Shown here: positions 1,331 through 26,249 of the stretch, in pieces
Layout of the letters: every line of letters starts with the position of its first letter
How positions within the stretch are numbered: the stretch's first letter is position 1
IMG/VR virus record: IMGVR_UViG_3300025889_000813
Span: 1-26,558 of that record
Direction: 5' to 3' (one strand)
Length of the DNA stretch: 26,558 nt
Source: a virus
The notes under the pieces: generated by a model
Database searches by the model: none
What the model was told of the DNA's origin: nothing
What the model saw: the letters and a program-made list of their open reading frames with translations, nothing else
Translations under genes and position numbers: made by a program

Positions 1331-1710
1331 AACTACTCCTCTCGCACGGACGCACCCACCCAACCGAAGAGTTGAAGGGGTGGGGCCCTAGCGGACAGCC
1401 CATCGATCACATCAACTCCGCACACTTCACACCAACACACCTCGTGCTTGAACGTAACTATCAGCCGCCGATCATGCTCCGCATCGTTGATGACCTAGTG
1501 GTCGGGCCGGACGGTATGTTCTACGGTGACCTCGAGTTCCAGGACGATGAGAATTTGTGTCAAGGTCAGCTGATGGTGACCACCTGTGACCGCAAGCAGT
1601 TGTGTGGCTATGTCCACATCACCTACCTGACAACCTTCAGTTGCGACATCGACATCGACAACCTGCCGGATCTCTTTCCGAACGGTTCAATCCGAGAAGT
1701 ACATCGATAA
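1327..1710 (+). CDS. Hypothetical phage protein (127 aa)
   Basis: Begins MKLLLSHGRTHPTEELKGWG. The start is set by the ATGA overlap with the upstream stop. The sequence predicts mixed beta structure (PPIMLRIVDDLVVGPDGMFY, QLMVTTCDRKQLCGYVHITY) and an acidic DIDIDNLPDLF segment near the C-terminus. The first hydrophobic residues are too few for a signal peptide. A 'PDGMFYGDLEFQDD' acidic loop is notable, but I assign no family. An 18-nt gap separates it from the next gene. Confidence 0.65.
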   Translation: MKLLLSHGRTHPTEELKGWGPSGQPIDHINSAHFTPTHLVLERNYQPPIMLRIVDDLVVGPDGMFYGDLEFQDDENLCQGQLMVTTCDRKQLCGYVHITYLTTFSCDIDIDNLPDLFPNGSIREVHR

Positions 1711-1728
1711 CCCCCTAAAACTATCACT

Positions 1729-2058
1729 ATGGGATTCTTCAGTTGGAAAACACAAGACACCGATCGCAGTATCGCAAACCGGTACTCTCGCCGAAAGACC
1801 TTCACCGTCATCATGACCGATGACAGAGGCAACTGCTACAAGGAACAGAACTACGAAGGCTACGGAGTCTTCGGGGGCAAGGACTACTATGTCCTGCTTG
1901 ATGAGATGAACGGAGGTGTCGGTGACCGAAACGCTGGGATCGAACTGGCCTTCAGTGACAAGGAGTACATCTCACCCAGCTTGTCTCAGTGCGGTGACTA
2001 CTATGATGGTAAGGCGCCCGATGATTGTCTCGACCAAGGATTCTTTTACGAGGATTGA
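1729..2058 (+). CDS. Conserved-type hypothetical phage protein (109 aa)
   Basis: Begins MGFFSWKTQDTDRSIANRYS and contains YEGYGVFGGKDYYVLLDEMN at about residues 43-62. This combination of an N-terminal GFFSWKT motif and a central GYGVFGGKDYY motif is one I recall from many uncharacterised phage proteins of similar length, so it is probably a widespread but functionally unknown family. The start follows an 18-nt gap containing CCCCCTAAAA, a faint echo of the upstream junction repeat. No catalytic residues can be named. Confidence 0.75.
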   Translation: MGFFSWKTQDTDRSIANRYSRRKTFTVIMTDDRGNCYKEQNYEGYGVFGGKDYYVLLDEMNGGVGDRNAGIELAFSDKEYISPSLSQCGDYYDGKAPDDCLDQGFFYED

Positions 2059-2059
2059 T

Positions 2060-2245
2060 ATGGCGTACAAAGTAATCTACATCGAGAACGGCAAGCGCCA
2101 TGACAACAACCTGATCATCGAGCGCAGACCTGTGGGTCACGTCAAATTCTTTGAAGCCTACCCCGCTTGCAAGAAAGGCCCCTACTTCGCCAAGTTTAAC
2201 TGCGACATTGTCTACGAAAAAGTAAACCAAGAGTCTGATGAATAA
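2060..2245 (+). CDS. Hypothetical small phage protein (61 aa)
   Basis: Begins MAYKVIYIENGKRHDNNLII and continues through VGHVKFFEAYPACKKGPYFA to a YEKVNQESDE tail. The frame extends further upstream, but the ATG at 2060, one base after the preceding stop, is the likely start because upstream starts would lie deep inside the previous gene. Predicted beta-rich and lysine-rich. Its 3' end overlaps the next gene by 8 nt. No family recognised. Confidence 0.6.
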   Translation: MAYKVIYIENGKRHDNNLIIERRPVGHVKFFEAYPACKKGPYFAKFNCDIVYEKVNQESDE

Positions 2246-2456
2246 AGCAAAGCAAGCAATCTGCAAAGCCCTAGACGGACACAGCGTCCGCATCGGGGGC
2301 TCTAGTGCGACAGCACTACTTATGTACGGGCCCTTCCACGGTGTGGTTGTGCGAGTACATCAAGACGGACAGCACACCAAGTATTTCTTTGACCCCGCTA
2401 TCGACAGCGAGATGCGGGCGTGTAAGCAACTAGTTCAATTAATCCTAAATACGTAA
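2238..2456 (+). CDS. Hypothetical small phage protein (72 aa)
   Basis: Begins MNKAKQAICKALDGHSVRIG. The middle (SSATALLMYGPFHGVVVRVH) predicts beta strands, followed by a helix (DSEMRACKQLVQLILNT). The start lies 8 nt inside the preceding gene. The MNKAKQ opening resembles the MSKAKQ opening of the 135-residue protein at 510, which may be chance or a duplicated gene start. Function unknown. Confidence 0.6.
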   Translation: MNKAKQAICKALDGHSVRIGGSSATALLMYGPFHGVVVRVHQDGQHTKYFFDPAIDSEMRACKQLVQLILNT

Positions 2457-2461
2457 CCACA

Positions 2462-2779
2462 ATGGGACGCACTAAAGACCTGCGGGATAACATCCCGCTC
2501 AGCCCCGGATCATTCGGGTCAATGGAAGAGTTCGCAGATGCCATCGGATGGGATCTGGGTAAGCCTGCTCCCCAAGAGCCAATCACTAGCAATTCCCTGT
2601 TCATGGAATTTGTGGATGACCTAGCCACTCAGTTGACTGAGATCATTCATCCCTCACCATGGGTAGAGGACGCACACGGCACACTTATCTTGACAGATAA
2701 GGCCCAAGACACCTACATCAGCGTGTACGAGGAGATCGAAATCAAGTTGGAACATTTGTTGAACGAATTAAATCGCTAA
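2462..2779 (+). CDS. Hypothetical phage protein (105 aa)
   Basis: Begins MGRTKDLRDNIPLSPGSFGS. The rest is acidic and helical (SMEEFADAIGWDL, FMEFVDDLATQLTEIIHP, VYEEIEIKLEHLLNELNR). The start follows a 5-nt gap, the stop is 1 nt from the next ATG, and there is no Shine-Dalgarno sequence. No domain recognised; an oligomeric or partner-binding helical protein is a loose inference. Confidence 0.65.
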   Translation: MGRTKDLRDNIPLSPGSFGSMEEFADAIGWDLGKPAPQEPITSNSLFMEFVDDLATQLTEIIHPSPWVEDAHGTLILTDKAQDTYISVYEEIEIKLEHLLNELNR

Positions 2780-2780
2780 C

Positions 2781-3032
2781 ATGAGCAAGTCTTTAACGGT
2801 CGGCATTGAGATCCGACTCACCGACGAGCTGCCTATAGTAAACGGCAGCCCCTGTGCTGCGCTTCAAGTTCTTGAGGAACTGAAGCGTGGAATCCACGAC
2901 CGCAGTGAATACTTTCACAAAGGACGTGAAGGAATGTCCCCTCTCACCACGTCACTAGACACGGTGCTGCAGGAAGTAACTAACCTGATCGATGCACACA
3001 TCGACTCGATCAAAAAGAACGCAAAGGTATGA
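2781..3032 (+). CDS. Hypothetical phage protein (83 aa)
   Basis: Begins MSKSLTVGIEIRLTDELPIV and is predicted to fold as a short beta region followed by helices (CAALQVLEELKRGIHD, TVLQEVTNLIDAHIDSIKKN). It starts 1 nt after the preceding stop, and its stop overlaps the next start as ATGA. No recognisable family. Confidence 0.6.
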   Translation: MSKSLTVGIEIRLTDELPIVNGSPCAALQVLEELKRGIHDRSEYFHKGREGMSPLTTSLDTVLQEVTNLIDAHIDSIKKNAKV

Positions 3033-3244
3033 GTGGTTTATCGTACTTCATGGGAGGTGGCAGCAGTCTGACCATTACCTACACCCACGGATTCACCCTC
3101 TTTGGATACTTCGTGACGTCACCATTTGACGGATCGTTCATGAAGACAATCTATGAGTTTGCAGTAGAGTGCTACGACGATCTAGATGAGCGAGCATTCT
3201 ACATCCAGGGCGAGCAAGACCAGCGCAAGATGTGTTTGAACTGA
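3029..3244 (+). CDS. Hypothetical small phage protein (71 aa)
   Basis: Begins MSGLSYFMGGGSSLTITYTH; aromatic-rich in the first half (FTLFGYFVTSPFDGSF) and acidic in the second (YDDLDERAFYIQGEQDQRK). It is coupled to the upstream gene by an ATGA overlap. It is the last gene of the left-hand cluster, and its stop is followed by an 84-nt gap containing a promoter. No family recognised. Confidence 0.6.
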   Translation: MSGLSYFMGGGSSLTITYTHGFTLFGYFVTSPFDGSFMKTIYEFAVECYDDLDERAFYIQGEQDQRKMCLN

Positions 3245-3262
3245 CCAATGTTCATAACTCGT

Positions 3263-3294
3263 TTTGCAAACAGAGTGAATAAGTCCTAGATTTG
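3263..3294 (+). promoter_or_regulatory. Bacteroidota-type promoter upstream of the parB-like gene
   Basis: TTTG at 3263-3266 and TAGATTTG at 3287-3294 are separated by 20 nt, matching the TTTG-N19/20-TAnnTTTG consensus recognised by the Bacteroidota primary sigma factor. It sits in the only sizeable gap (3245-3328) of the left arm, leaving an AT-rich leader of roughly 30 nt before the ATG at 3329 with no Shine-Dalgarno sequence. It probably drives the recombination/SSB operon and may restart transcription after the small early genes. Confidence 0.75.
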
Positions 3295-3328
3295 TTCACG
3301 GATTCAATCCACAATAATTCAATTCACT

Positions 3329-12217: not shown

Positions 12218-12461
12218 ACTCGGTAAGAACTTCTAGTCTCGCAGCAGTGCGAGCTAGGACGCTATCACTGTGATGCAGCCTTAATGATAAGGCTTCAATC
12301 TTGGCCTCTAGGTAGAACACTCTCTCACCACAGCTTTCGATCTGGTTGGTGTAGTTTATTCTGTTGTCTATATACAGATACCCCACCGCCAGCGTTACTA
12401 AGAAGAACACTGCCATCGTGGGGTTTTTTACAAACTGATCAAATGATAGGGGTGCCTTCAT
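12204..12461 (-). CDS. Small membrane protein with periplasmic coiled coil (spanin-like)
   Basis: An 85-residue protein with one transmembrane segment at about 15-32 (TMAVFFLVTLAVGYLYID) followed by a heptad-rich helix (YLEAKIEALSLRLHHSDSVL, ARTAARLEVL). N-in topology with a periplasmic coil is typical of Rz-type inner spanins, so it competes with the 144-residue neighbour for that role. It starts in a TAATG overlap with the amidase stop and overlaps the next gene by 14 nt. It is one of two similar membrane-coil proteins in the cassette. Confidence 0.6.
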   Translation of the reverse strand: MKAPLSFDQFVKNPTMAVFFLVTLAVGYLYIDNRINYTNQIESCGERVFYLEAKIEALSLRLHHSDSVLARTAARLEVLTEYENR

Positions 12462-12889
12462 TAGTACATGTCAGCAAACTTCTCCTTAACGATAAAGCTA
12501 GGGCAAGCCTTGGCTGAGAACTCATTGTGTCCGTGGATGGTCATGTCTGCATCAAACAAAGTACGCAGAGACAAGACCAGCATACGGAACGCCTTGTTCT
12601 GCTCCGGGGTCATGGTGTCGTTTGGCTTACCCTCTTTGTCAATGCCGCCGATATAGCAGATGCCAACTGTGTCAGCGTTGTGTCCCTTAGTATGGGCGCC
12701 TGATCTATCCAAGGGTCGTCCTTGAGATACAGACCCATCGAGATGGATAACGTAATGGTATCCGATATCCGACCATCCCCTACCTTTTGGTTTAGGATCT
12801 GTGTGCCACTTGCGAATGGTTTCAACCGAGTACTCCCTACCTTCTTTGGTTGCAGAACAATGCAGGATGATTCTGTTTAGTTCTCTCAT
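12461..12889 (-). CDS. N-acetylmuramoyl-L-alanine amidase, T7-lysozyme-like endolysin
   Basis: A 142-residue Amidase_2 enzyme that cuts the bond between N-acetylmuramic acid and L-alanine in peptidoglycan. It aligns with T7 lysozyme almost end to end: IILHCSATKEGREYSVETIR, GWSDIGYHYVIHLDG, and HGHNEFSAKACPSF. The zinc ligands are H10, H121 and C129, and the catalytic residues equivalent to T7 Y46 and K128 are Y44 and K127. There is no signal peptide, so release needs the holin. T7 lysozyme also inhibits T7 RNA polymerase, but no such polymerase is visible here. It starts 1 nt after the giant gene's stop, at the head of the lysis cassette. Confidence 0.93.
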   Translation of the reverse strand: MRELNRIILHCSATKEGREYSVETIRKWHTDPKPKGRGWSDIGYHYVIHLDGSVSQGRPLDRSGAHTKGHNADTVGICYIGGIDKEGKPNDTMTPEQNKAFRMLVLSLRTLFDADMTIHGHNEFSAKACPSFIVKEKFADMY

Positions 12890-12890
12890 G

Positions 12891-15800
12891 TTATTTGCTT
12901 AGAGCCCTCTCGAGGAGGATGTTGTTTATGGATTGCTCTGACTTGAATGCCAGGTATACAAACAAGAAGTTCTCATACCTGCTGTATTCGTCAGGTGACA
13001 TTGATTCCTCCTTAGCCCGCATCACCGCAGCGATTTTCTTTGGTGTCTCCCTGGTTAGTCTACGCACTTCTTTCATGTGCTCCTTGTACTCTAATGGCAT
13101 GTTGCGCTGAAGGATTTGCTCAGCTATAGCAGGGTCCAGCGCCTTCATGAATCTGCTGATACTAGTGCCTCTGGATAGGGTGGCGGGATCGTTCTCTGCC
13201 TGCATCTTCAGAATCGAAACCAGGCGATCTACGTCAGTGTTCTTTGAAGCATTGAGCATAGCCTTGATCTCAGGATCTCCACTCATAGCCTTCGAGACGA
13301 GCTCGTATGCTGCGAGCTCTTCCTCAGAAGAGAGGGCTCTATCGATGGCCTGGTTGTCCATAGCTTTCGAGAAGTACTCCATCTCCTTGACTCCAACACC
13401 CATCATGTTTGCACCCATCAATCCCAGCCTCAACATGTGGCTAGTCCTGAAATCATCTTGGTCTTCTGGGCGAATGAACCGCTCCCTTCCTGATCCACTG
13501 ATATAGGATTGGCCATCATTCTCAAGGACAGCGTAACTCTTCTGCACGTCCTTCATCATATCGCCAGCAGGCCCGATACCGTCAAGCAGGGTGTTGGTGA
13601 ATGTGATGAAAGGCGTTTCATCTTCAACCGCTAGTCTCTGAACCAAGCCTCCGTAGGTTGGCATAGCGTCACCGTACTTCTTGTACAGCACGAACTTGTC
13701 CATCTTTTCAAGCCCTGGCATGTCATAATCGGACTCATTGAAGAAGACATAGTAGTTGAATGCATCCTTAGCTGTGTCATCGATGATTGAAGTCGACGGA
13801 GCCGGCAGCATATCTACTACTGTCTGCACACCTGAGTCCCGCAGCAGCTTGTCTGGGATGTGGTCGGTGAACTTCTCCTCATCGTCGTCGTCACCACTTA
13901 GCGCAGACCACAGGTATGAGAACGCAGCTAGCGTCAACTTACTTGCGACGCTGAACATGTAGGCGCCGGCGGCGGTGGCGGCTAGACCTTTAGCACCATC
14001 GACTCTTGATTCTGCGTCTGAGTCAAAGCTAAGCAGCCTTCCGAAGTCAGCGGTGACAGATCGTTTAGTGTTGATAGCGAAGCTCTGGAATGGCAGCAGC
14101 ATCTGCATCAGCACCCTACCGAACCCATTGTTTTTCTTGTAGACAGCAGCGGCCATCCTTGCGCTCGATGTGTTCTGGTCTTTCTCTACCATGTTGTCGG
14201 CATACGCCAGTGCCTCCATGTTAGGATTAGCAGACTGCTCCTTCCAATCGATGCTGTACGCTGAATCAGCCAGCCCATTGTTGACCAGGTAGTTAGCATA
14301 GTATGCGTAGAACGAGCTGATCGCTACCACTTTATCGGTGGTTCCAAGTGTCCACATAGACTTCTCAGTGAACTTGTCTCGTGCTGCATAGAACAGCTTC
14401 TTGTCATAGGTAACACGCCCGGTAAATGGATCGATGTTACCAGCCTTGTAGTCACGGGAGAAGATAGCGCTGAGCTTCAAGAGCTCGAGCTTATCTGACG
14501 AGATCTTAGGTTTGACATCACTGAAGAACCTGATCTTCCCGTTACGGTCCCTGCCCGCCACAGTCAGTGCCAGGTTGGTTGCTGTCTCCTGGAGGTAGTA
14601 GATCATCACCGTGGGGTTCTTCGCCACGTTCAGCATCGTAGCAAAACCAACAGTACCCTGCTTGAATAGCTGGATAATCACCGACGCAAATGCTCTCACT
14701 ACCGCAGCAGCCCTGAACATCTCTATCGGATTGAATGGTATCTCCACGCTGCCGAAGTTCATGTGCTGACGGAAGATGAACGGCTCGCTCTGATTGTCAC
14801 CCATCAGGTAGTCATCGATCTGCTGTTCCAATGCCATCTTCACCTTGTCGTTCATCATCTGAGATGCCTCTGACGATTGGAAGGTGTACTTCATTGCCAG
14901 CACATCACCGATTGTATTCATGATGAAATTGTTCTCCCTGAGAGCCCTTTCGTTCAGTCGGATAAAGTCCAGCCCCAGCACAGCGTTCGAATCGATCGCA
15001 CGATTCTCCCGCTCGAAGGTTGATCCAGGAACCTTAGTATACCCAGCCTTACCCACCTGTGTCATTGTGGATAGTAGCTTCGACCTCAGCTCCATTACGC
15101 TGCCAACCTCCGGCTTATCACTCTTCTTCCTTACACGGAATGCGGTATACGAGGGGACAACTTCTAGCTGCTTAGACAGGAATCGTTCCGTAAATTGCTC
15201 CAAATCTGGACGGGCGGCTTCGTGCATCTGCACCATGAAGTCGACCATCTCTACAAGCGCAGGCTTTTCTGCCTCGACCTTAGCTTGCAATTCCTGCAGG
15301 CTTTCGACGCCATCAAACAGGAAATCAAGTGCTCTCTGGTGTTGCTCCATTACGCCCTTGCCAAACATCTTGTTCTTGACGTTGTAATCCAGAGTCGCTG
15401 TCATTGCCTCTCTCAAAGCAAGGAACCATGAAGCCTCGTTGTGACCCCTTGATGGCATCTGCCTAGACATAGAGTAGATCTGCATGATGGCCTGCGAGTA
15501 CTGAGATGTAATGATCTTATCAAACCTAGCTGCAACCCTATCCTGCGTAGTCACCCCGTACTTCTTGTGGATCTCCTTGATCTTGTTACCAAGGGCGTTA
15601 GCTACTTGGATGTGCTGCTGCTCATGCCTGTTCACGGACATGATTACATTCTGCAGACCCAACGCAACCTTGATCCTTGCGATATCGATGTTGCTTGCGG
15701 CGAATGCGTTCCTGATGAAGCTGCTGAGGTTGTCAAAGATTTGACCCAGGACTTTTGGCCTAGCCTTGATTCCTGACTTGGTCAGATCCTTGATCTTGCC

Positions 15801-18800
15801 TGGATTGTCTACAACACCCCTAACGATTGCGGCCATGTACCCCAAACCGTTGATGCCTCCGTTGACCAGGTAGTCATTTATCTTGTACTCCAACGCAAGC
15901 AGGTGATGCTTCTCCAGCTGCGACAGCCTAACCAATGTGGCACCACCCAAGTCTGCTGGGTTGTTGGTACCGAAGATCATTGCGAAGTCCGGGTTCATCA
16001 ACAACTCATCCCCATGCATCACTAGCTTGGGCAGGATACCTTCGGTAAGGATGAGGTCTTTCTGTATATCAAGTTCGGCGGCCTGGTCTTTTGCTATCTC
16101 TTCCAAGATTGTTTCCAGATCCTGTACGTTATTGGGATCGAGCTTAAGTTCCTTGGCCTTCTTGTTGATGTCCTTCTCGATCTTAGTGAGCCTTGCTTGG
16201 TCGAACTTGTCAAGGAGCTTTTTGAGCTCCTCGTCAAAGGTGGTCTTCTTGCCAGCCTTGGTGGCTTTGTCAAGATTCTGTTGCGCCTTGACTCTGATCC
16301 TGGCATCCATCGTAGCCGCTTCAATAGCCTTGAACACAGTGGCCTCGGTCATCAAGCCTTGAGCCTCTAGCAATTGGGTGGTGGTGATGATGATGTCCCC
16401 ACCTTTGTCCTTACCGAATCGGGCACGGCGCATGCTTTGGTTCACCCTCTCCATCAGGTCGATAAGCGCCTCGATCTCTGTCTCTGGGATGTACCTGGTA
16501 TTGATACCCGCCAGTATCGCCGCTACGTTTCTGTATGAACCAAAGTCTTTTTGCTTTGCCTTTTTCTTGAGGGTCTTTTGGATATCTTCTGCCTTCTTCC
16601 TGCTCTTCATGTACTGCTCCATCGCAGCCTTCTGGTCCTGCTGATCGAAGATCACAGCCAGCTGATCTAGGAACGTATCGATGTAGTCCATCTCATTCCC
16701 CTCCAGCTTCTGAGCGGATACATTAGCAGCCTTACCCATGATGGTAAAGAACTGCTTGATCTGTGCTGCCGTGAATCGATTGGATGTTCCAGCATCCTTC
16801 TTCATCCTCGCTGCAATCAGCTTCTTCGCCTCCTTGGTAAACTCCTTGATGGTGGATACCTTGTTCTTGAGCTGGCCTAGCTCATCACGTAGGTTCTTTG
16901 CTTGAGTGGACAGCTTATCCATATCCCTCTGCAACTTGCGCTGGATCTTCTGCTGTTCCTGGATAGCTTGCCTACGACCTCTAGCTTGGTGCTTGGCTTT
17001 CTGGTAAGTGCTTTCAGCCTGCTCAGTAGTCATACCAGCTGCGGTCAGGATCTGAATGATGTCTGACTTCAGCGGTTTGATTACGAGCTGGGCGCTAGGT
17101 TCGAGAACCAGCTTGCGGTTCTTACCCTTGCCTTTCATCTTCAGGGTATAGCCCTGCTCGGTCATGGCTTGCATGATTGTGTTGACGATAGGCTGCGTCT
17201 TCTTGGATTGATCGCCTTGGCTTGTAGCCTCCTGCATCTCGAAGATCAGGTCACTCAGCACATTCACGTCAAGGCCAGTGGCAGCTGCAGCCATGTCAAT
17301 CTCTTCCGAGACATCAATGCTCATGGTGTTCCTACCACCGATATAACCGATGTATTTACCACGAGCTTGCTCGGGACCGTACTTATCTACGTAGTCCTGG
17401 AACGATACAGTATTCCCTTGTGCGTTGGTTACTTCAGGGAATATGTCAATAGCGCTGTACGATTGATTGAATATCATCGTCTCAACAGGGACCTTGTTCC
17501 CGTTCTCATCTACAGCTCGGATGACATAAGAGTATGATGGGTGGTAGTCTGGATCACCAGGCTCAGGCTGCACCACTTGTAGGTCGCCAGATGTCCTGAT
17601 AGCTAGTAGCACGTCACCTCGATTGTGTCCAACGCTCAAAGGCTCCGCCATCATTTCGGCCAGCGCATTGTATGTTGGGAGGTTGCCGAACCTTACAGAG
17701 GTTCGCAACTCAGCCTTGCCAAGAAGAGACTCCAAGAAAGCCCTACGTTCATCGAAGGTCATACTTGAATTAGTAAAAGTCTCAATTATCGCAAGGTCCA
17801 ATGTCTTGAGTCTAGGGTTGTCTGATTTCACCCTAGACAGGTAGATGTCTCGATACGGAAGCAGAGCCTTCTTGCTCAATGCCTTCTTGATCCTAGCATG
17901 TGCTTCCTTCGTAGATATCTCCTTGTCCAGTATGGCCTGCCTCATCATACCAATAGCTGTTAGCTGCATATTGATGTTGGACATGTGGCTGTCAGGATTC
18001 ATCAGGGCAGGCAGCAGGTATCTGTATCCGTCGCTGTTCTCCGCCATCCCCTTGACGATGGCGTTGGCTTTCTGAAGTGACTGCGAGGCCCATACATTGC
18101 CTGTCCTTGCTGCGTAAAGAATGCCACCGAGGTATTCGTAATCACCCATCGTGCCTACAGTCTGCCTGTCTGCAAATGTCAGGGCAGCTACAATCTTACC
18201 CAGAGAGGACAGATCCTGACCAGTCATTACATTCGACAGAAGGTTCGCCGGTCTGGATAGATTGAGATCAGATAGAGGTTGAGTTTTACTACCCAGCTCA
18301 GTTGCATCCACGGTGGTGCCAGTAGAGCTAGCGTCGGTTGACACATCCCCAGAGAATATACCATCCCTATCCATCACCGGTGTATCCGATGCCTTACTAG
18401 ATGCAGTCAATGATGCTTCAAAGAACACCTTCTGGTCTGTTCTAGTTACATCTTCAGTCGAGGCTATGTTAGACTCAAGCATGGATGGATTCATGAAACG
18501 ACGCTGTGCGTTTCTTGCTTCGACCTCTCCAGCTAGCGCACCATAAATAGAGTCGTTCAGTCCTACACTCTCATTCGACGCTTCAAAGGCATCAATAATC
18601 CCTTGGCTGCCAATCTCACCAGTCACATCGTCTGCTCGGCGGTAGAGATCGGCCTGCAATTCATTAAGCTGGTTCCTTATGTCAGATTGCCTTTTTTGTA
18701 GCTCCTTAAGTTTTTCAATGCCTTCCAAAGAAAGCTCCAGCCTAATCATCGCAGCGAAAAGCGGGCTTGCCTCTTTCTTGACAGTCCTGTAAGTATCCCT

Positions 18801-21800
18801 AAGCGGCTCCAATGCCCGCAGGTCTTCTACTACTTGCTTGATTACCGCTAGGTTTGCTTCGAGAAAAGATCGAAGCTCTGGATCTTGTACGTTTCTGATA
18901 AGAGCATCATACAACGCAGCACCAGCCTCAATTTTTAATAGACGATTCGCATCATCCCTAAGGGATCTGTATTCATCAAAAGATTTTCCCCGGCGTGCAT
19001 TACGACGTTCAGAATGATACTCTTGCACCGCCATAGACATGAGGGTGGAACCAAGGTTCCCGCCAACAGCAAATCCTTCGATCTCTTGGATGGCGTGCTG
19101 CACCTCGTGAATCAATGTGCTCTGACTAAGCACTGACTGCCGAGCATCGTAGCTGTCCGCTGTCTCTGGTTTTGAATCTAGCCTTTCTCCACCACGACCG
19201 GTCCTTTGCATGCGATCTAAGTCACGTCCTCCGTGGTATATGATTATGTTCCGAGGGTTGCTGTCATAAGATCCATAGGTGAACCCGGTGCCCTCCCTGA
19301 CCTGTACTGTGATATCTGCAAGCTCAGGGTACATCTCCATAAGCTCCCCCTGGATAAAGTCACTCAGCAAGAAATCTTTCCCGATGTCATCCATAGTAAA
19401 TTCACGAGTCAGCATATCGGGTATCTCATAGCGCCACTTGCCGTCAGCGCCACGTTCCCATCCAGTCATCACATAGATATCCTGCTCGCTATACAGCCTA
19501 TTGCCCTTGTTGTCTAGCTGTGACTCAAGTAGGTTAGCTGTATTGTAGTGTGATCGGACGCCTTCAGATAGGTTAGCGTTAGCACCAATAATCTGATTCT
19601 TGGCTTCACGCTCCTCGTCGCTGGTCTGTGGCTTGAAATTGCGGGGGACCTTCACATCCTGTGCAGCCCTCATGATATCGGAGGTGTCTTCGACTGCCTC
19701 GCCTCTGCTCATCTGACCGGTAGCCCTGTTGATCGCATCAACAACCTGCTGTAGCTTAGGGTCTTTCACCTTGCCACCGAGCTTCTCCTTGACGAAGTCA
19801 CGCAGGGCTTTGATCGAGTTCTTACGCATGCTGATGTCTGCAGAACCAGACGTAAGGTCTGCCTTGATTTCAGTGAGCACCTCATCGGCGATCCTGTAGT
19901 CAGAGAGGACAGTGTCGATCAGGATCTTCCTAATCTTAGCGGGGTCACCACCAGCAGCTATCAGCTTCTCAACAATGTCTTGCATCGCAGCTGGATCTAG
20001 AATCTGCTGGAGTATACCCGTGATAAAGTCTAGCTTGCTGTTTAGGTATTCGCCAGACATGTTGCGTAGGAAGTGTGCAGCCAATCTCCTGGTGCCACTC
20101 TTGGTCTCGTCTCTGTTCTCGTTGCGTATCTGCGCTGCGTGGAATGCTTCGTGGTACGCAGTGTTGGCCTTGAGCGCTGGCATGAACAGGTGAACGTCAC
20201 CGGTCTCGGTGATGAACAGTCCCGATGCCAAGCCCTGCTCACCAGTAGCTTTCGTGTAGGCTTTCATTGTTCCGTGCAGGAACACCCTGCCAGTACCACC
20301 GTTTGCAGTGATAGTGGCGATAGCCTTGGCTACATTCCTCAGTCCCTGCACAATCTCTTCACGGGTAGAGAATCGTGTTGTCACAATCTTACCCTTAGCG
20401 ATGATCCTCTCGATCAGTGTGGTGGCGTTGTCAGCATCGAGTTCGACAGTGTTGCCACGACCAACCCTTCCGTAGTCAGCCACCTCTGGATCAACTCTAC
20501 CGACCTCATCCAGCACAGCGAGTGTATCTACAGAGTCAAGCATGCCGTTGATGTAGTCGGCCTCGTTTTGGTACTTAGACTCGACAGCGAACTTAGCCTC
20601 GAATGCAGCTCTGGTTTGGTTCTGTAGATCCTGGATCTCCGCCTCCAGTACTGCGACGGTTTCCGTATCGCCGTCTTCTTTGGCTTTAGCTAGACGAGCT
20701 CGCTTTCTGCGAGCCTCGGCTCTAGCCATCGCAATCTTCTGATTGTGTCCGAAGATCTCCATGACATCTTCGTCAGACATCCTGCTGAGGAACTCAAGGT
20801 CACGGCTAGCGATCCGCTGCATCTGTTCCTGCACCTTGATGATCTCTCTCCTGATGCTGGACTTCTCGTCGTCAGTCTTAGCCTTATTGAGATCAGCCTT
20901 GAGCTTCTCCATTTTTGTTTGGAGCTTGATGTGATCTCGGGTAGATATACTAGACAGGTACGACACGCTCTTCATGACACCTACCTGTATTGAACCCGCA
21001 GCAAGGCCGATTGCAAAAGAATCTGCGACCTGGTACCACGATACAGCTAGCTTGTCAATCTGGCTCTCCTTAGCGTTGATCTGTGATTGTATCAGTAGCT
21101 TATTCTCGCCACTGATACCTTCTGTCTGCATATCGATTTGAAGCTGCTCGATCTCACGCCTCAATCCCGTCCTCTCAGCCATGTTTCTCAGGCTGGCATC
21201 AGCGATAGCAACCAAGCCTTCCTCGATACCCTCCTCAAAGAACATGAAGGCACGAGACCCGGTAGTCTTTGTCCACGTTTTGTTTACCGCCTTGAGGAGC
21301 CCCTTTTCAGCAGGGATAGCACCCCATAGCAAGCCTGTAGTTTTTCTAGCAGACTTGCCTAGTGACTTGCGGACAGCGTTCACCACCCCGAGCTCTGTTC
21401 TCATGAACAGACGCTCTGACACAAACTCTACACCTGCAGCCGTTAGGCCATAAAGAAACTTCTCACCCTCTGAGAGGTTAGGATTCTTGTCAAGTTCTTC
21501 GATCATAGCTCCACCAGAACCCATAGCCATAGCTCCGAGGGTTAATGAGGTGGTTCCGGTAAACATCCCGGCTATCTGTATTCCGATCTGGGGTAAAGCA
21601 TCCTCAACCCCAGCCATAAACATAATGTGACCGGCCTCGAAGTCACCTCTAGCATAGTTTTCCATTACACCCCTCTCCATCTGATCAAGGGTGACACCCT
21701 TATGCAGGACTTGAGCTTGTTGAATCCCAGCGGAAATCTCACTCCACGACATGGTCTGGCCCTCCGGTAAATCCAATTTTCTTGCGAGGGTCTCTTCGGC

Positions 21801-23399
21801 TCTGGGGATGTCTCCTATAGTCAAGGCATAAACGACAAGCGGATCAAATACCGCCATTGGATCAGCGGCTGCCCTCTCCTTCATTGCAGATTGAAAAGAA
21901 GATAACATGTTCTGAGTACCATACATGATGCTACCTACAGTTGTAAATAGGTTGACTGCATGGTCTTCGCTTCCGGTGGCCGAATAAATGCTTTCTTTGA
22001 TCCTCTTTCCGATGTATGCAGCGGAGTTAAAGTAGTTCGTTACAGTGGATTCCCCAGTCTCTACAATCGTATCAAGGATGTTGTTGTCCAGGATGTCTCT
22101 GATATCGTAAGCCCTTCTGTCTAGAGCTAGTACCTCATTGGCTTCGTTGTAGGCGTTAACCAGATCAACCTGGTTACCCATCATTTCCTTCAGGATCGAC
22201 TGCTTGTCGTCTTCAGCGAGCGCTCTGTTGTAGCGCTCTACATAGTCGTTCACCTGCGATACCACATCTTTCTTAGCAGCCTGAGCATTGACTACCTCGG
22301 ACCTCGCTGTCCAATATCCTGCGATGTCGATGTACTTCTCAGGGGTAAGCTCCTCCCCGATAGAGTTGTAGTATTCTTCAGCGGACTCAAAAGTCGATAG
22401 CCTCTCGGGCATCAGCTCCTGTGCAGCAGCGAGCTGTTCCTCGTTCTCGGGCTTGTAGCTAGGGTTTATCTTTTCGAGTGCGTCTTCGTAAAATGGTACG
22501 ATGTTACCGTCCTCATTCTCTACTGTAGGTATATTGGCGATCTGGTCGCTGGTGTACCGGGAAAACGAAAACGCATCGTTCGTGATCGATACCTTTCTGA
22601 ACTCCTTATTGGGGATAAGGTCTTTTGACTCTGTGATCAGCCCAGACCTAGTCATGACATTAACAGCCAGGTCTTTGGTTACCTGGGCGTCCTTAAATAT
22701 CTTGACGTGCTTATATGAATCGTAAAACTCCGATGCCAAGCGTTCAGCATCGGCAGCAGACATGGGCGCTCCAGGAACCATGTTGTTTTTCTGCATCCAT
22801 TTCTTGGCCTCACGGTAGACAAAGTAATCCCTCTGGGCTACGATTGCGGGATCAGGTACGACACCGGGTGTGGTGTATGCCTCCCTCATCTTCTTCTGCT
22901 CTTTCTCGTACAGGATGCTGGCATCCTCTTCTGTGTACGTTACCCCTGACCCCTCTCCATAGCGTTGATCGGGTGTCTGCTGAAGAGCTATGTATGGATC
23001 GGGATCTAGATCACCCAATCCATACTCCGCATTGTCACCAAACAAACCTTGAAGGAAATCAACCCTAGATGCTTCAGCTTGTGCCTGTATATCGGCAGCT
23101 GTCTGTGTATCACGAGGATCTTCTACGCCTGTATCGCCTGATGGCAATCCTATACTGGTGTAGTAGTCGGAAGAAATAGCCGACTCTTTTTTTTTAGGAT
23201 TCACACCAAAGATATACACCAGGTCTCTTCTGGAGCCCTCGAATCCTGCACTATCCAGTGTCCTGTAGATGGATTCAAACCCGTCTGGATTGCTAAGCAC
23301 CTTGTCTTTGAGCGCATCCATGTCGCCGGCAAAACCTTCATCATGCAATGTCTGCAATAGCAAATCCTGTAGCTCGGATTTCTGTGGATCTCCGTTCAT
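12891..23399 (-). CDS. Giant polyvalent virion protein (3502 aa) with two zincin motifs and LPD23-like domain
   Basis: One unbroken 3502-codon frame. HEAFH at 1083-1087 (after LFITETGDVHLFMPALKANT) is a zincin motif of the MPTase-PolyVal kind. Residues about 1285-1455 fit LPD23: TGWERGADGKWRYEI, then HEVQHAIQEIEGFAVGG with HExxH at 1431-1435; GEVEARNAQRRF follows near 1622. Hydrophobic stretches lie at about 599-634, 792-815, 2896-2945 and 3135-3166, the last followed by an acidic GDDDDEE. Coiled coils lie near 825-865, 895-935, 1565-1595 and 2130-2200. Polyvalent proteins are packaged and enter the host with the phage DNA; the proteases may process virion or host proteins. No polymerase motif seen. 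It follows the GH19 gene after 21 nt and precedes the lysis cassette. Confidence 0.85.
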   Translation of the reverse strand: MNGDPQKSELQDLLLQTLHDEGFAGDMDALKDKVLSNPDGFESIYRTLDSAGFEGSRRDLVYIFGVNPKKKESAISSDYYTSIGLPSGDTGVEDPRDTQTAADIQAQAEASRVDFLQGLFGDNAEYGLGDLDPDPYIALQQTPDQRYGEGSGVTYTEEDASILYEKEQKKMREAYTTPGVVPDPAIVAQRDYFVYREAKKWMQKNNMVPGAPMSAADAERLASEFYDSYKHVKIFKDAQVTKDLAVNVMTRSGLITESKDLIPNKEFRKVSITNDAFSFSRYTSDQIANIPTVENEDGNIVPFYEDALEKINPSYKPENEEQLAAAQELMPERLSTFESAEEYYNSIGEELTPEKYIDIAGYWTARSEVVNAQAAKKDVVSQVNDYVERYNRALAEDDKQSILKEMMGNQVDLVNAYNEANEVLALDRRAYDIRDILDNNILDTIVETGESTVTNYFNSAAYIGKRIKESIYSATGSEDHAVNLFTTVGSIMYGTQNMLSSFQSAMKERAAADPMAVFDPLVVYALTIGDIPRAEETLARKLDLPEGQTMSWSEISAGIQQAQVLHKGVTLDQMERGVMENYARGDFEAGHIMFMAGVEDALPQIGIQIAGMFTGTTSLTLGAMAMGSGGAMIEELDKNPNLSEGEKFLYGLTAAGVEFVSERLFMRTELGVVNAVRKSLGKSARKTTGLLWGAIPAEKGLLKAVNKTWTKTTGSRAFMFFEEGIEEGLVAIADASLRNMAERTGLRREIEQLQIDMQTEGISGENKLLIQSQINAKESQIDKLAVSWYQVADSFAIGLAAGSIQVGVMKSVSYLSSISTRDHIKLQTKMEKLKADLNKAKTDDEKSSIRREIIKVQEQMQRIASRDLEFLSRMSDEDVMEIFGHNQKIAMARAEARRKRARLAKAKEDGDTETVAVLEAEIQDLQNQTRAAFEAKFAVESKYQNEADYINGMLDSVDTLAVLDEVGRVDPEVADYGRVGRGNTVELDADNATTLIERIIAKGKIVTTRFSTREEIVQGLRNVAKAIATITANGGTGRVFLHGTMKAYTKATGEQGLASGLFITETGDVHLFMPALKANTAYHEAFHAAQIRNENRDETKSGTRRLAAHFLRNMSGEYLNSKLDFITGILQQILDPAAMQDIVEKLIAAGGDPAKIRKILIDTVLSDYRIADEVLTEIKADLTSGSADISMRKNSIKALRDFVKEKLGGKVKDPKLQQVVDAINRATGQMSRGEAVEDTSDIMRAAQDVKVPRNFKPQTSDEEREAKNQIIGANANLSEGVRSHYNTANLLESQLDNKGNRLYSEQDIYVMTGWERGADGKWRYEIPDMLTREFTMDDIGKDFLLSDFIQGELMEMYPELADITVQVREGTGFTYGSYDSNPRNIIIYHGGRDLDRMQRTGRGGERLDSKPETADSYDARQSVLSQSTLIHEVQHAIQEIEGFAVGGNLGSTLMSMAVQEYHSERRNARRGKSFDEYRSLRDDANRLLKIEAGAALYDALIRNVQDPELRSFLEANLAVIKQVVEDLRALEPLRDTYRTVKKEASPLFAAMIRLELSLEGIEKLKELQKRQSDIRNQLNELQADLYRRADDVTGEIGSQGIIDAFEASNESVGLNDSIYGALAGEVEARNAQRRFMNPSMLESNIASTEDVTRTDQKVFFEASLTASSKASDTPVMDRDGIFSGDVSTDASSTGTTVDATELGSKTQPLSDLNLSRPANLLSNVMTGQDLSSLGKIVAALTFADRQTVGTMGDYEYLGGILYAARTGNVWASQSLQKANAIVKGMAENSDGYRYLLPALMNPDSHMSNINMQLTAIGMMRQAILDKEISTKEAHARIKKALSKKALLPYRDIYLSRVKSDNPRLKTLDLAIIETFTNSSMTFDERRAFLESLLGKAELRTSVRFGNLPTYNALAEMMAEPLSVGHNRGDVLLAIRTSGDLQVVQPEPGDPDYHPSYSYVIRAVDENGNKVPVETMIFNQSYSAIDIFPEVTNAQGNTVSFQDYVDKYGPEQARGKYIGYIGGRNTMSIDVSEEIDMAAAATGLDVNVLSDLIFEMQEATSQGDQSKKTQPIVNTIMQAMTEQGYTLKMKGKGKNRKLVLEPSAQLVIKPLKSDIIQILTAAGMTTEQAESTYQKAKHQARGRRQAIQEQQKIQRKLQRDMDKLSTQAKNLRDELGQLKNKVSTIKEFTKEAKKLIAARMKKDAGTSNRFTAAQIKQFFTIMGKAANVSAQKLEGNEMDYIDTFLDQLAVIFDQQDQKAAMEQYMKSRKKAEDIQKTLKKKAKQKDFGSYRNVAAILAGINTRYIPETEIEALIDLMERVNQSMRRARFGKDKGGDIIITTTQLLEAQGLMTEATVFKAIEAATMDARIRVKAQQNLDKATKAGKKTTFDEELKKLLDKFDQARLTKIEKDINKKAKELKLDPNNVQDLETILEEIAKDQAAELDIQKDLILTEGILPKLVMHGDELLMNPDFAMIFGTNNPADLGGATLVRLSQLEKHHLLALEYKINDYLVNGGINGLGYMAAIVRGVVDNPGKIKDLTKSGIKARPKVLGQIFDNLSSFIRNAFAASNIDIARIKVALGLQNVIMSVNRHEQQHIQVANALGNKIKEIHKKYGVTTQDRVAARFDKIITSQYSQAIMQIYSMSRQMPSRGHNEASWFLALREAMTATLDYNVKNKMFGKGVMEQHQRALDFLFDGVESLQELQAKVEAEKPALVEMVDFMVQMHEAARPDLEQFTERFLSKQLEVVPSYTAFRVRKKSDKPEVGSVMELRSKLLSTMTQVGKAGYTKVPGSTFERENRAIDSNAVLGLDFIRLNERALRENNFIMNTIGDVLAMKYTFQSSEASQMMNDKVKMALEQQIDDYLMGDNQSEPFIFRQHMNFGSVEIPFNPIEMFRAAAVVRAFASVIIQLFKQGTVGFATMLNVAKNPTVMIYYLQETATNLALTVAGRDRNGKIRFFSDVKPKISSDKLELLKLSAIFSRDYKAGNIDPFTGRVTYDKKLFYAARDKFTEKSMWTLGTTDKVVAISSFYAYYANYLVNNGLADSAYSIDWKEQSANPNMEALAYADNMVEKDQNTSSARMAAAVYKKNNGFGRVLMQMLLPFQSFAINTKRSVTADFGRLLSFDSDAESRVDGAKGLAATAAGAYMFSVASKLTLAAFSYLWSALSGDDDDEEKFTDHIPDKLLRDSGVQTVVDMLPAPSTSIIDDTAKDAFNYYVFFNESDYDMPGLEKMDKFVLYKKYGDAMPTYGGLVQRLAVEDETPFITFTNTLLDGIGPAGDMMKDVQKSYAVLENDGQSYISGSGRERFIRPEDQDDFRTSHMLRLGLMGANMMGVGVKEMEYFSKAMDNQAIDRALSSEEELAAYELVSKAMSGDPEIKAMLNASKNTDVDRLVSILKMQAENDPATLSRGTSISRFMKALDPAIAEQILQRNMPLEYKEHMKEVRRLTRETPKKIAAVMRAKEESMSPDEYSRYENFLFVYLAFKSEQSINNILLERALSK

Positions 23400-23420: not shown

Positions 23421-26249
23421 TTATCGCTTTACTCCGGTGTACTCATCCATCTTTCTCAGCCCCTCTTTGCCGACCGGATATCCGAATGGATCTTTACCTC
23501 CCGATATAGTCCTGTATACCAATACGTTCGACTCAGCCTGAGTCATGTTGTCGATATCGATTCCCATCTCTTTAGCTTGAGCGCCGTAGTTCTTGTTAAT
23601 GAACCAAGATGTAACCCTTTCAGCTGTTCCGGGTTCGAGTACAAGATCGGGATTATCTACCAATCTTTCGTCGCCGAATAGAGCTTTAGAGGCGGCCCTG
23701 TAGTTAGCCTTGCCTGTCAGCTGGATGTACGTTCGGCCACGATACTTGTACCCATCTCCGGGCTTATCATTGCCGAGATAGTTGCCTTTGTAGCCGTATG
23801 TTTTTTCAAACAGCGCCGGACCGTTTTTCACCAGTTTCTTGAGCTCCTTCTTAGCTGCATCGTCCTTCGGTACATACTTCTTAACGATCTTCCTGCCATC
23901 CTCATTTAGTTTGAAGCTGCCATCATCATTCTTCTCGTAGATGGGCAAGGCAAGACCCTCCTTGTACATTCTGTAACCGAATACCTCAAGGATTCTCCTG
24001 ACACTCTTGTAGGTTGCATCTTCGACCCTATCTCGCTGTCCTCCCGATTCTTTCTCAGTTGCGGCCTCTACCGACTTAATGATCATGTCGTTGAGTCCAT
24101 AACCCTTGAGCTCTTCTTGGAAGGTCGGTACCTCGCTTGGTACTTCAGCTGATCCCAAGGTCATTGCACCTTGGGACTCCATCCTAGCTAGAAACTCCTC
24201 TTCAGTCTCACCTGGCACTGCCATATCTGGTACGGATGGAACATCCTGCACAAAAGGATCGGCTACTGCTGTAGCATCTTGAGGTGTTGGCTGATTGAAA
24301 ATCCTACGGAAGAAGTCTCCGACACGGCTTGTCTTCCGGCCCTCCTCTTGATCTTCTTGATCTTCCGCTGGGTCTATTACCTTCTTGTCTTCCATCTCCT
24401 CCTCTTCGGAGTCAACGACAGCGGGCGACACGAAGTCTTCATCCTTCGTTTCCTCCTCCTGCACTTGGACTGGCATCGGCTTCTCTTCCTCCTCCTCGAT
24501 TACTGTCTCGCTGGAGGCGTCGATAACCATACCCTCCTCACCGTCAGGAGCATTATCACCTACTCCTAGTAACTCATTTGCCTTTTTCGCATTTGGATTC
24601 ACATAGGACCCTGCAGGCTGAGTTGATTTCGCTTCATTGATAAGATCCTGATCTTCTGGGGTCTCAACCACACCGAGTTGAAGCTGAGCCATACCCAGAG
24701 CTTGTGTGAAGTTAGGGGTAGCTTTGTTCTTCTGCTCTTGGGTTAGCAGAGCATTGTTCAGCGAATTGAATAGATCGGGGGATTCTTTAGGATCTACAAT
24801 ATCCGAACCCTTACGTCGCAACTCCAGTAGTTGGACACCGCTAACTCCTAAGGCATCAGGGTTCTTCAAAAGGTTTTCAAGCAGATCAGTGTCTACGTTG
24901 ATCCTGTACGCCTTGACGTTACCATTTGCATCGAGAATAGCGTCCTGGGTTTTAATCTTCTGGTTATCGATGACGACATCTTGTGCGTATGTCGACAGAG
25001 GTAGATCGTAAAGAGGATCTGTTTCGGGATTGATCCCAGATTCACTTGCCCAATTCATGATCGCAGCATCTGCTGTTGGTGTCACCACCCAGTTGCCGTC
25101 CGGTAATTTCTCATACTGGCCTCCGAATACGTTTTTGATATCAGCAGTAGGGGTACCAGCAGCATCGATCGCACTCTTCATGCCTGCTGGCATTACACCC
25201 TTCTGGGTGTTGTAATACCCTTGAGCGTGAATCCTCGCAGCGTCTCTAGATTCCTCCAGCTGTTTTGTGCTCAAATCTGGATGCAGCTTCTCAGCTTCCT
25301 CTATGGTAAGATCGAATTTAAGTTCGCCGTCTACGAATTTGATGCTGGTCGCAGTTTTTCCCTGATCGTTTTGTTTTGTAAAAGCTGCATCTGGCATACG
25401 GTCGTTAATCCTGTCCAACTCACCTTGAGTGATCTGTTGATCACCCTGCCTATGCATGGCCTTGTAACCATGCAGCTTGATAGTCCCGACAGATTCAGGG
25501 GCTATCACATTGATGTAGTTGTCATACGTACTGGTCGCCAGTTCATCGAACTTATCCTGCTTGAGTTCGTACATCTCCATCTTGTTTCCAACCTGCCTGT
25601 ACTCGTACAGCTCGGGGGCCTGAGCCTTGAAAGTCTTGTCTGAAACTTCAGCCACCTCCAAGAAACTGTGCTTGAACTGGTCCTCTACAATCGTCGGTGG
25701 CATCGGCAGATTCGCTGCGTTAGATGCAGTTATCGTAGACTCAAAGTATGGGACCTCGCCAACCATGATCACGCCGTCTGGGCTTACGCTGTAATTTGGA
25801 GCTTCTGAAAACTTTTCAAAATACTGCATTGCCTCCTCGTAATTGGTAGCGTAACTGGGGTCAGTCATTACCATGTTGATGGACTTAGCCAAGGTCTGGC
25901 TACCGAATTGACCGTCCTGAAGGATGTTCTCGTACTGAGCTTTCTGACGAGCCACCTTTTCCATGTTCTCTTGAGTCTTGTTGCCCTCGTAAGCTACCTC
26001 AGCCTTCATCCATTCGTCAAGCGCAAGCTGAACACCACCCTTGTACTTAATACCAATCTGCCCAGGGACAGTAGTGATTGCCGCTGTACCTATGCCGAGT
26101 GAGTTCTCGAGCTGCTTGCGTTCAGCATCCCGCTCCGCAAGAACACCTTTGATGGGGTTGGAAAAGGCTGCACCGGCAGCTTGACCGATGGCTCCGTAAT
26201 CGATGTTAGGAGCTAAGAAGCCTGTCTTGAATTTTTGTCCCTCAGCCAT
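23421..26249 (-). CDS. Internal/ejected virion protein with C-terminal GH19 muramidase-like domain
   Basis: A 942-residue protein. Residues 1-570 (from MAEGQKFKTGFLAPNIDYGA) are an unrecognised, helix-rich structural region. Residues about 580-645 form a very acidic linker (IEEEEEKP, DSEEEEMEDKK, EDQEDQEEG). Residues about 715-942 form a GH19 chitinase/endolysin domain: KESGG with probable catalytic E734, then KYRGRTYIQLTGKANYRAAS near 832-851, the most conserved block of GH19. Such domains cut the glycan strand of peptidoglycan. Placed among virion genes and beside the polyvalent protein, it probably opens the wall at entry, like the transglycosylase of T7 gp16. It overlaps the upstream gene by 8 nt. 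Confidence 0.82.
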   Translation of the reverse strand: MAEGQKFKTGFLAPNIDYGAIGQAAGAAFSNPIKGVLAERDAERKQLENSLGIGTAAITTVPGQIGIKYKGGVQLALDEWMKAEVAYEGNKTQENMEKVARQKAQYENILQDGQFGSQTLAKSINMVMTDPSYATNYEEAMQYFEKFSEAPNYSVSPDGVIMVGEVPYFESTITASNAANLPMPPTIVEDQFKHSFLEVAEVSDKTFKAQAPELYEYRQVGNKMEMYELKQDKFDELATSTYDNYINVIAPESVGTIKLHGYKAMHRQGDQQITQGELDRINDRMPDAAFTKQNDQGKTATSIKFVDGELKFDLTIEEAEKLHPDLSTKQLEESRDAARIHAQGYYNTQKGVMPAGMKSAIDAAGTPTADIKNVFGGQYEKLPDGNWVVTPTADAAIMNWASESGINPETDPLYDLPLSTYAQDVVIDNQKIKTQDAILDANGNVKAYRINVDTDLLENLLKNPDALGVSGVQLLELRRKGSDIVDPKESPDLFNSLNNALLTQEQKNKATPNFTQALGMAQLQLGVVETPEDQDLINEAKSTQPAGSYVNPNAKKANELLGVGDNAPDGEEGMVIDASSETVIEEEEEKPMPVQVQEEETKDEDFVSPAVVDSEEEEMEDKKVIDPAEDQEDQEEGRKTSRVGDFFRRIFNQPTPQDATAVADPFVQDVPSVPDMAVPGETEEEFLARMESQGAMTLGSAEVPSEVPTFQEELKGYGLNDMIIKSVEAATEKESGGQRDRVEDATYKSVRRILEVFGYRMYKEGLALPIYEKNDDGSFKLNEDGRKIVKKYVPKDDAAKKELKKLVKNGPALFEKTYGYKGNYLGNDKPGDGYKYRGRTYIQLTGKANYRAASKALFGDERLVDNPDLVLEPGTAERVTSWFINKNYGAQAKEMGIDIDNMTQAESNVLVYRTISGGKDPFGYPVGKEGLRKMDEYTGVKR

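Follow-up and report, generated by a model that had tools for sequence, protein, structure and literature searches.

The window, a linear virus record of 26,558 bases, encodes one giant open reading frame, P0001, which runs without interruption from 23399 to 12891 over 3502 codons. An earlier reading of the letters alone (the sequence-only reading) had described a single 3502-residue frame with HEAFH at residues 1083-1087 and HEVQH at 1431-1435; length, frame and motifs all proved exact, and the strand of the gene is corrected here to minus. P0001 and its two neighbours are arranged as follows.

12461..12889, minus strand: 142-aa Amidase_2 protein, probable endolysin, directly downstream of P0001
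12891..23399, minus strand: P0001, giant ORF of 3502 aa with zero cysteines
23421..26249, minus strand: 942-aa gene directly upstream in the transcript, GH19/endolysin-like C-terminus, zero cysteines

A gap of 21 bases separates the 942-aa gene from that of P0001, and the order of the two, lysozyme followed by giant, is the same as in phage AF. The 942-aa protein, close relatives of which were not found in viral contigs, is a probable co-ejected lysozyme. The record also encodes a BT4734-like primase-helicase, an ERF protein and three tRNAs. As the primase is nearest to those of phages of Flavobacteriia, the host probably belongs to the Bacteroidota; the annotation of Maribacter phage Panino, which has the nearest primase, contains no comparable giant. 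Because no head or tail genes are in view within the 26.5-kb fragment, we infer the morphotype of the phage, which was probably short-tailed.

Close relatives of the whole of P0001 were found neither in viral contigs nor in genomes, and megablast among phages gave zero matches. LPD23 was the sole Pfam match at E values up to 0.1, a PDB sequence search with the full-length protein returned only noise, and Foldseek with a 681-residue model gave no significant match. By tblastn, residues 1312-1543 matched giants of Pseudomonas phage AF, the F116 group and a gut phage, while residues 1-1039 and 1661-3300 were without a phage match. The membrane-active stretches previously proposed for the chain are weak, with one 19-mer exceeding 1.6 on the Kyte-Doolittle scale, at residues 2894-2912. 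Along the gene, GC3 was about 0.49-0.59 up to residue 2100 and about 0.60-0.66 beyond, and GC2 was lowest (0.31-0.34) at residues 2101-3000. Within P0001 we distinguish the following features.

19653..20399, minus strand: zincin A domain, residues 1001-1249 (HMM span, AlphaFold core, structural alignment)
20139..20153, minus strand: HEAFH, residues 1083-1087, with H1083 and H1087 predicted as zinc ligands and E1084 as general base
19881..19883, minus strand: E1173, predicted third zinc ligand of site A
18402..19631, minus strand: LPD23 and zincin B module, residues 1257-1666 (HMM E 7.5e-65, the window itself being among the 54 training sequences)
19416..19493, minus strand: LPD23 core (TGWERGADGKWRYEI), residues 1303-1328 (Pfam PF18838)
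19095..19109, minus strand: HEVQH of site B, residues 1431-1435
18555..19052, minus strand: helical insert between HEVQH and the third-ligand helix, residues about 1450-1615 (model)
18510..18530, minus strand: GEVEARN, residues 1624-1630, with the predicted third-ligand Glu of site B (E1625 or E1627)
15612..15626, minus strand: HEQQH, residues 2592-2596, a third HExxH that is probably accidental
13860..14261, minus strand: conserved module near the C-terminus, residues 3047-3180, with a GDDDDE stretch at its end (HMM)

Judged by conservation and predicted structure, site A is a genuine zincin site with a complete HExxH plus Glu ligand set. An HMM built from 13 relatives and the window spans residues 1001-1249, and across these 14 sequences the only invariant columns are H1083, E1084, H1087 and E1173; where relatives have a second site ahead of LPD23, their alignment to this span is collinear, linker included. 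In the AlphaFold model, HEAFH (model residues 99-103) lies on helix 96-109 and E1173 (model residue 189) on helix 184-200, preceded by helix 29-47 and strands 55-58, 76-79 and 84-88, in agreement with the zincin core of a helix, three strands, the HExxH helix and the Glu helix (PMC5512222). The structural matches that fit the domain are the zincins lethal factor, Certhrax and PPEP-1, at modest Z-scores of up to 7.6. Among giants, 62 of the 63 matches of the HMM above 12 bits fall on an HExxH. The HMM also gave weak matches to the HExxH domain of the N4 virion RNA polymerase (vRNAP; HELVH, 8.6 bits) and to the HELGH site of P1 DdrB (10.3 bits), which are suggestive at most because one reversed sequence scored 14.4, with the rest at 7.1 or below.

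Site B likewise is, from its conservation and modeled fold, a genuine zincin site with HExxH and third-ligand Glu complete. LPD23 exceeds the curated cut-off in P0001 (PF18838, E 3.9e-8, 33.4 bits against 27) and was matched by all 54 members of the module. The earlier placement of HEVQH inside an LPD23-like domain holds insofar as LPD23 is present, but the domain lies about 100 residues before HEVQH rather than around it. An alignment of the tblastn relatives reads TGW..GADGKWR.E, then HE[VL]QHA[IV]Q..EGFA.GG and finally GEVEARN, and every DGKWR[FY]E locus having enough sequence (102/102) carries an HExxH downstream. As a highly variable insert defeated HMM alignment, the third ligand was read by a motif test: GExE[AS] follows the HExxH in 94 of 95 loci, compared to 2.7 expected in shuffles, with both E1625 and E1627 invariant across the 54 module sequences. 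Across relatives, HExxH and GExE[AS] lie 23 to 219 residues apart, and the distance is about 188 in the window, where the insert is helical in the model and may be a lid or a substrate-binding part. Hence, LPD23 forms the front of a zincin module in which a very variable insert precedes the third-ligand helix.

Structure predictions for site B point the same way. The AlphaFold model of the window places HEVQH (model residues 447-451) on helix 430-457 and GEVEAR on helix 639-652, and a compact relative, L019, folded at a pLDDT of 86.7 with site B helices at 149-171 and 188-201. The top PDB neighbours of the latter were IrrE/PprI, the VgrG2b effector domain, a Spartan-type DNA-protein-crosslink protease, selecase and lethal factor; as the Z-scores are low (5.3 at best), the case for a zincin here rests on the agreement of these neighbours together with sequence conservation. 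Profile scans with module members matched the DUF6782 putative metallopeptidase (22/54) and SprT-like proteins (7/54), and a profile match to the PDB gave IrrE at E 0.16. In a second structure comparison, the 681-residue model returned zincins for A and helical-bundle noise for the insert. Overall, the models show a zincin core, with a Glu helix after the HExxH at both sites, and the earlier proposal of two independent zincin motifs is borne out, each having an HExxH and a conserved third-ligand Glu in a different domain type.

More than one zincin per chain is, by these sequence counts, the rule among LPD23-zincin giants. A profile scan with the LPD23-zincin alignment recovered 372 relatives in viral contigs and 213 in genomes, from many phyla, and 79 of the 102 giants whose LPD23 zincin is complete contain another HExxH, compared to 4.6 in shuffled sequences. 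The second motif lies upstream of the LPD23-zincin site in about 20 giants, at a distance of 257-343 residues (348 in the window), and downstream in AF and F116, with further insertions between the sites in some giants. Thus the pair in P0001 is real but not exceptional, as the sequence-only reading had made it, given that at least two sites occur in 79/102 relatives. Among polyvalent phage proteins, 36% carry one to five metallopeptidase (MPTase) domains and about 8% of those more than one (PMC5512222), a lower share than the multi-site fraction in the LPD23 subset. Multiple metallopeptidase domains, with self-processing or host attack as their role, were proposed for such proteins in 2017 (Iyer et al., PMC5512222), and P0001 therefore joins a kind that is already known.

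Several relatives vary this architecture. L122, a 5592-aa protein from an Aeromonadaceae MAG, has three LPD23-type HExQH sites and further HExxH motifs, and L051, from a viral contig, has two LPD23-type HExQH sites in one chain. L005/L006, L014, L031 and L081 carry about 310-430 extra residues between zincin A and LPD23 relative to close relatives, as if a further domain had been swapped in. The F116 giant (L004, 5370-16731) is annotated as two genes (gp59, 2129 aa; gp60, 1649 aa) and that of Baskent_P6 (L002, 5455-16803) as a single 3782-aa protein, likely owing to a frameshift or a sequencing difference.

The statement that about 1800 residues on the C-terminal side lack an assignment holds only in part: residues 3047-3180 match a conserved module. 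An HMM built only from other giants, started at L017 and with the window absent from training, matched window residues 3047-3179 at E 8e-12; no decoy exceeded the training threshold, and the best reversed decoy reached 0.45. An iterative search started from the window, whose weak first step was lost once decoys were added, is not used as evidence. The module occurs in 40 of the 96 giants with a visible end, at 79-98% of chain length, and its carriers match PLxRFG/DarB-like podoviral giants and PHROGs that include 'DarB-like antirestriction'. No Pfam family matched it. For LPD38 (PF18857), considered as its identity, Pfam gave no match in the window record and none in the controls, and the likeness of the module to T7 gp16 was discarded at 6.3 bits, within background.

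The complete absence of cysteine is, as a compositional signal, the best evidence here that P0001 is ejected. Judging from the cysteine frequency in the rest of the window's genes, about 44 would be expected in 3502 residues (P about 6e-20). Zero cysteines are likewise found in the proven ejected proteins P22 gp7, gp20 and gp16, T7 gp15 and gp16, N4 gp50, gp51 and gp52, and JC1 gp67-69, and in the lysozyme and giant of AF, while most other virion proteins of the P22, T7, N4, JC1 and AF phages have some. Pooled cysteine content was 0.12% in the giants versus 0.98% in the other ORFs of their loci, with the giant lower in 81 of 84 loci; cysteine is absent from 13 of 14 tandem-zincin giants, and the gene immediately upstream of the giant is cysteine-free in 39 of 58 cases, with other positions mostly containing cysteine. 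Exceptions to the pattern, which was noticed post hoc, are P1 DarB (9 cysteines), F116 gp59 (4) and T7 gp14 (1), and the N4 major capsid protein and N4 gp57 are cysteine-free too. Cysteine is mentioned neither in an ejection-protein review (PMC8954989) nor in the N4 structure paper (PMC12633501), older literature being outside this scope. With composition, gene order and homologues in agreement, P0001 is very probably located in the virion.

We propose that P0001 is the largest ejected pilot protein of its phage, packaged whole, with its two zincins acting as peptidases after delivery, a reading to which we assign a probability of roughly 55%. Encoded beside the lysozyme gene, P0001 would be packaged as a single cysteine-free chain, leave the head by threading its small domains one after another down the tail, and refold in the host envelope or cytoplasm. 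Zincins A (HEAFH and E1173) and B (LPD23, HEVQH and GEVEARN) would then act as zinc peptidases, most likely on host or co-injected proteins and less so on the P0001 chain itself, and the C-terminal module may be a packaging or ejection part common to podoviral giants. That P0001 resides in the virion and is ejected, that its zincins are catalytic, and what they cut and what this module does, we infer from the features above and from better-characterized systems.

Of these systems, N4 vRNAP (gp50) resembles P0001 in its length of about 3500 aa, an HExxH domain, a large helical C-terminal part and zero cysteines, but it has a single HExxH and no match to the LPD23 module, and a T7-type RNA polymerase domain was not matched by Pfam in P0001. 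The N4 protein is proposed to cross a channel of ~35 Å as a string of domains, with the HExxH domain intact (PMC12633501). JC1 gp69, a 4515-aa protein for which purified virions yielded 51 unique peptides (PMC9144972), shares with P0001 an A-like HEAFH site and the lack of cysteine; the C-module HMM gave no score for gp69 itself. The C-terminal module is common to the window and to relatives matching podoviral PLxRFG/DarB-like giants such as those of the F116 group, Klebsiella LASTA and JC1 (gp69). It is all that is shared with DarB-like antirestriction proteins: their LPD36-MTase-SF2 (adenine methylase-helicase) dyad was not matched by Pfam in P0001, and methylase, helicase and ART domains were likewise not matched there. 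Like P0001, T7 gp16 is without cysteine, and its operon position is comparable, that of a large, final ejection protein encoded behind other internal proteins, but it has its own lysozyme domain, whereas in the window a lysozyme-like domain is encoded by the gene next door. The polyvalent MPTase proteins (PMC5512222) are also giant multi-domain phage chains with LPD and MPTase domains; in P0001 the pair differs in being of two different zincin types, in the recurring order A, LPD23, B, and LPD23 is absent from the main text of that paper. The AF and F116 giants have B and then a second site, unlike the A-then-B order of P0001.

In the alternative in which one or both zincins cut P0001 itself, in the capsid or after ejection, separate working proteins would be freed from the chain. 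Such self-processing has been proposed for polyvalent proteins generally, P1 DdrB is processed before packaging (PMC5512222) and its HELGH site is the one detected by the site A HMM; furthermore, both zincins lie mid-chain, flanked by large arms without assignment. Nevertheless, N4 vRNAP, which keeps an HExxH domain, is reported to enter the particle unprocessed (PMC5512222), and 'no evidence of degradation' was seen in the full-length protein made recombinantly (PMC12633501). P22 gp7 is processed by host OpdA, according to its record annotation, and a conserved candidate cleavage junction was not identified in P0001. As the N4 protein stays intact and relatives with the LPD23-zincin module also carry effector domains (ART-PolyVal in F116), we mildly prefer host or co-injected targets. 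The earlier suggestion of self-cleavage into several ejected proteins is not supported, and we consider self-processing unlikely, though still the strongest competitor of delivery of an intact chain.

It is less likely again that catalysis is irrelevant and that the zincin folds, with or without bound zinc, are compact beads that help in packaging, refolding or docking. In the beads-on-a-string model of N4 vRNAP, subdomains of 250-300 aa are sized to the tail channel (PMC12633501), and the HExxH-containing MPTase region of N4 is required for encapsidation (PMC5512222), so that a zincin could serve as a zinc-holding structure or in packaging only. Against this, the HExxH general-base Glu and the third-ligand motif vary no more than the His ligands do, and because a structural zinc site would need no HExxH Glu, a purely structural reading is disfavoured. 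Finally, that the HExxH motifs are chance occurrences or degenerate remnants has a negligible probability and is refuted for sites A and B, since 0.025 motifs are expected from the composition of P0001 and both sites are conserved in relatives with their third ligands, even if one motif of the three, HEQQH at 2592, does look accidental. This motif, overlooked in the sequence-only reading, sits in a helical stretch, and relatives of the surrounding region (2480-2900) were not found even by iterative search; it is probably a chance motif.

A broader idea, which we hold tentatively and at slightly less than even odds, is that phage proteins bound to exit the capsid, travel down the tail and traverse the oxidising periplasm exclude cysteine as a general rule, and that P0001 is such a cargo with two delivered metallopeptidases. 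Under this rule, selection would purge disulphide-forming residues from chains that are thousands of residues long. If it is true, ejected cargo would favour zincins as an enzyme class, since they hold zinc on His and Glu alone, and ejection proteins would be recognisable from sequence, providing a cheap test for giants of unknown function. For the family, the finding that LPD23 giants normally keep at least two intact zincin active sites suggests a genome-delivered activity that is maintained by selection, and P0001 opens the question of what injected phage zincins cut, which may be addressed in relatives available in culture, Pseudomonas phage AF among them.
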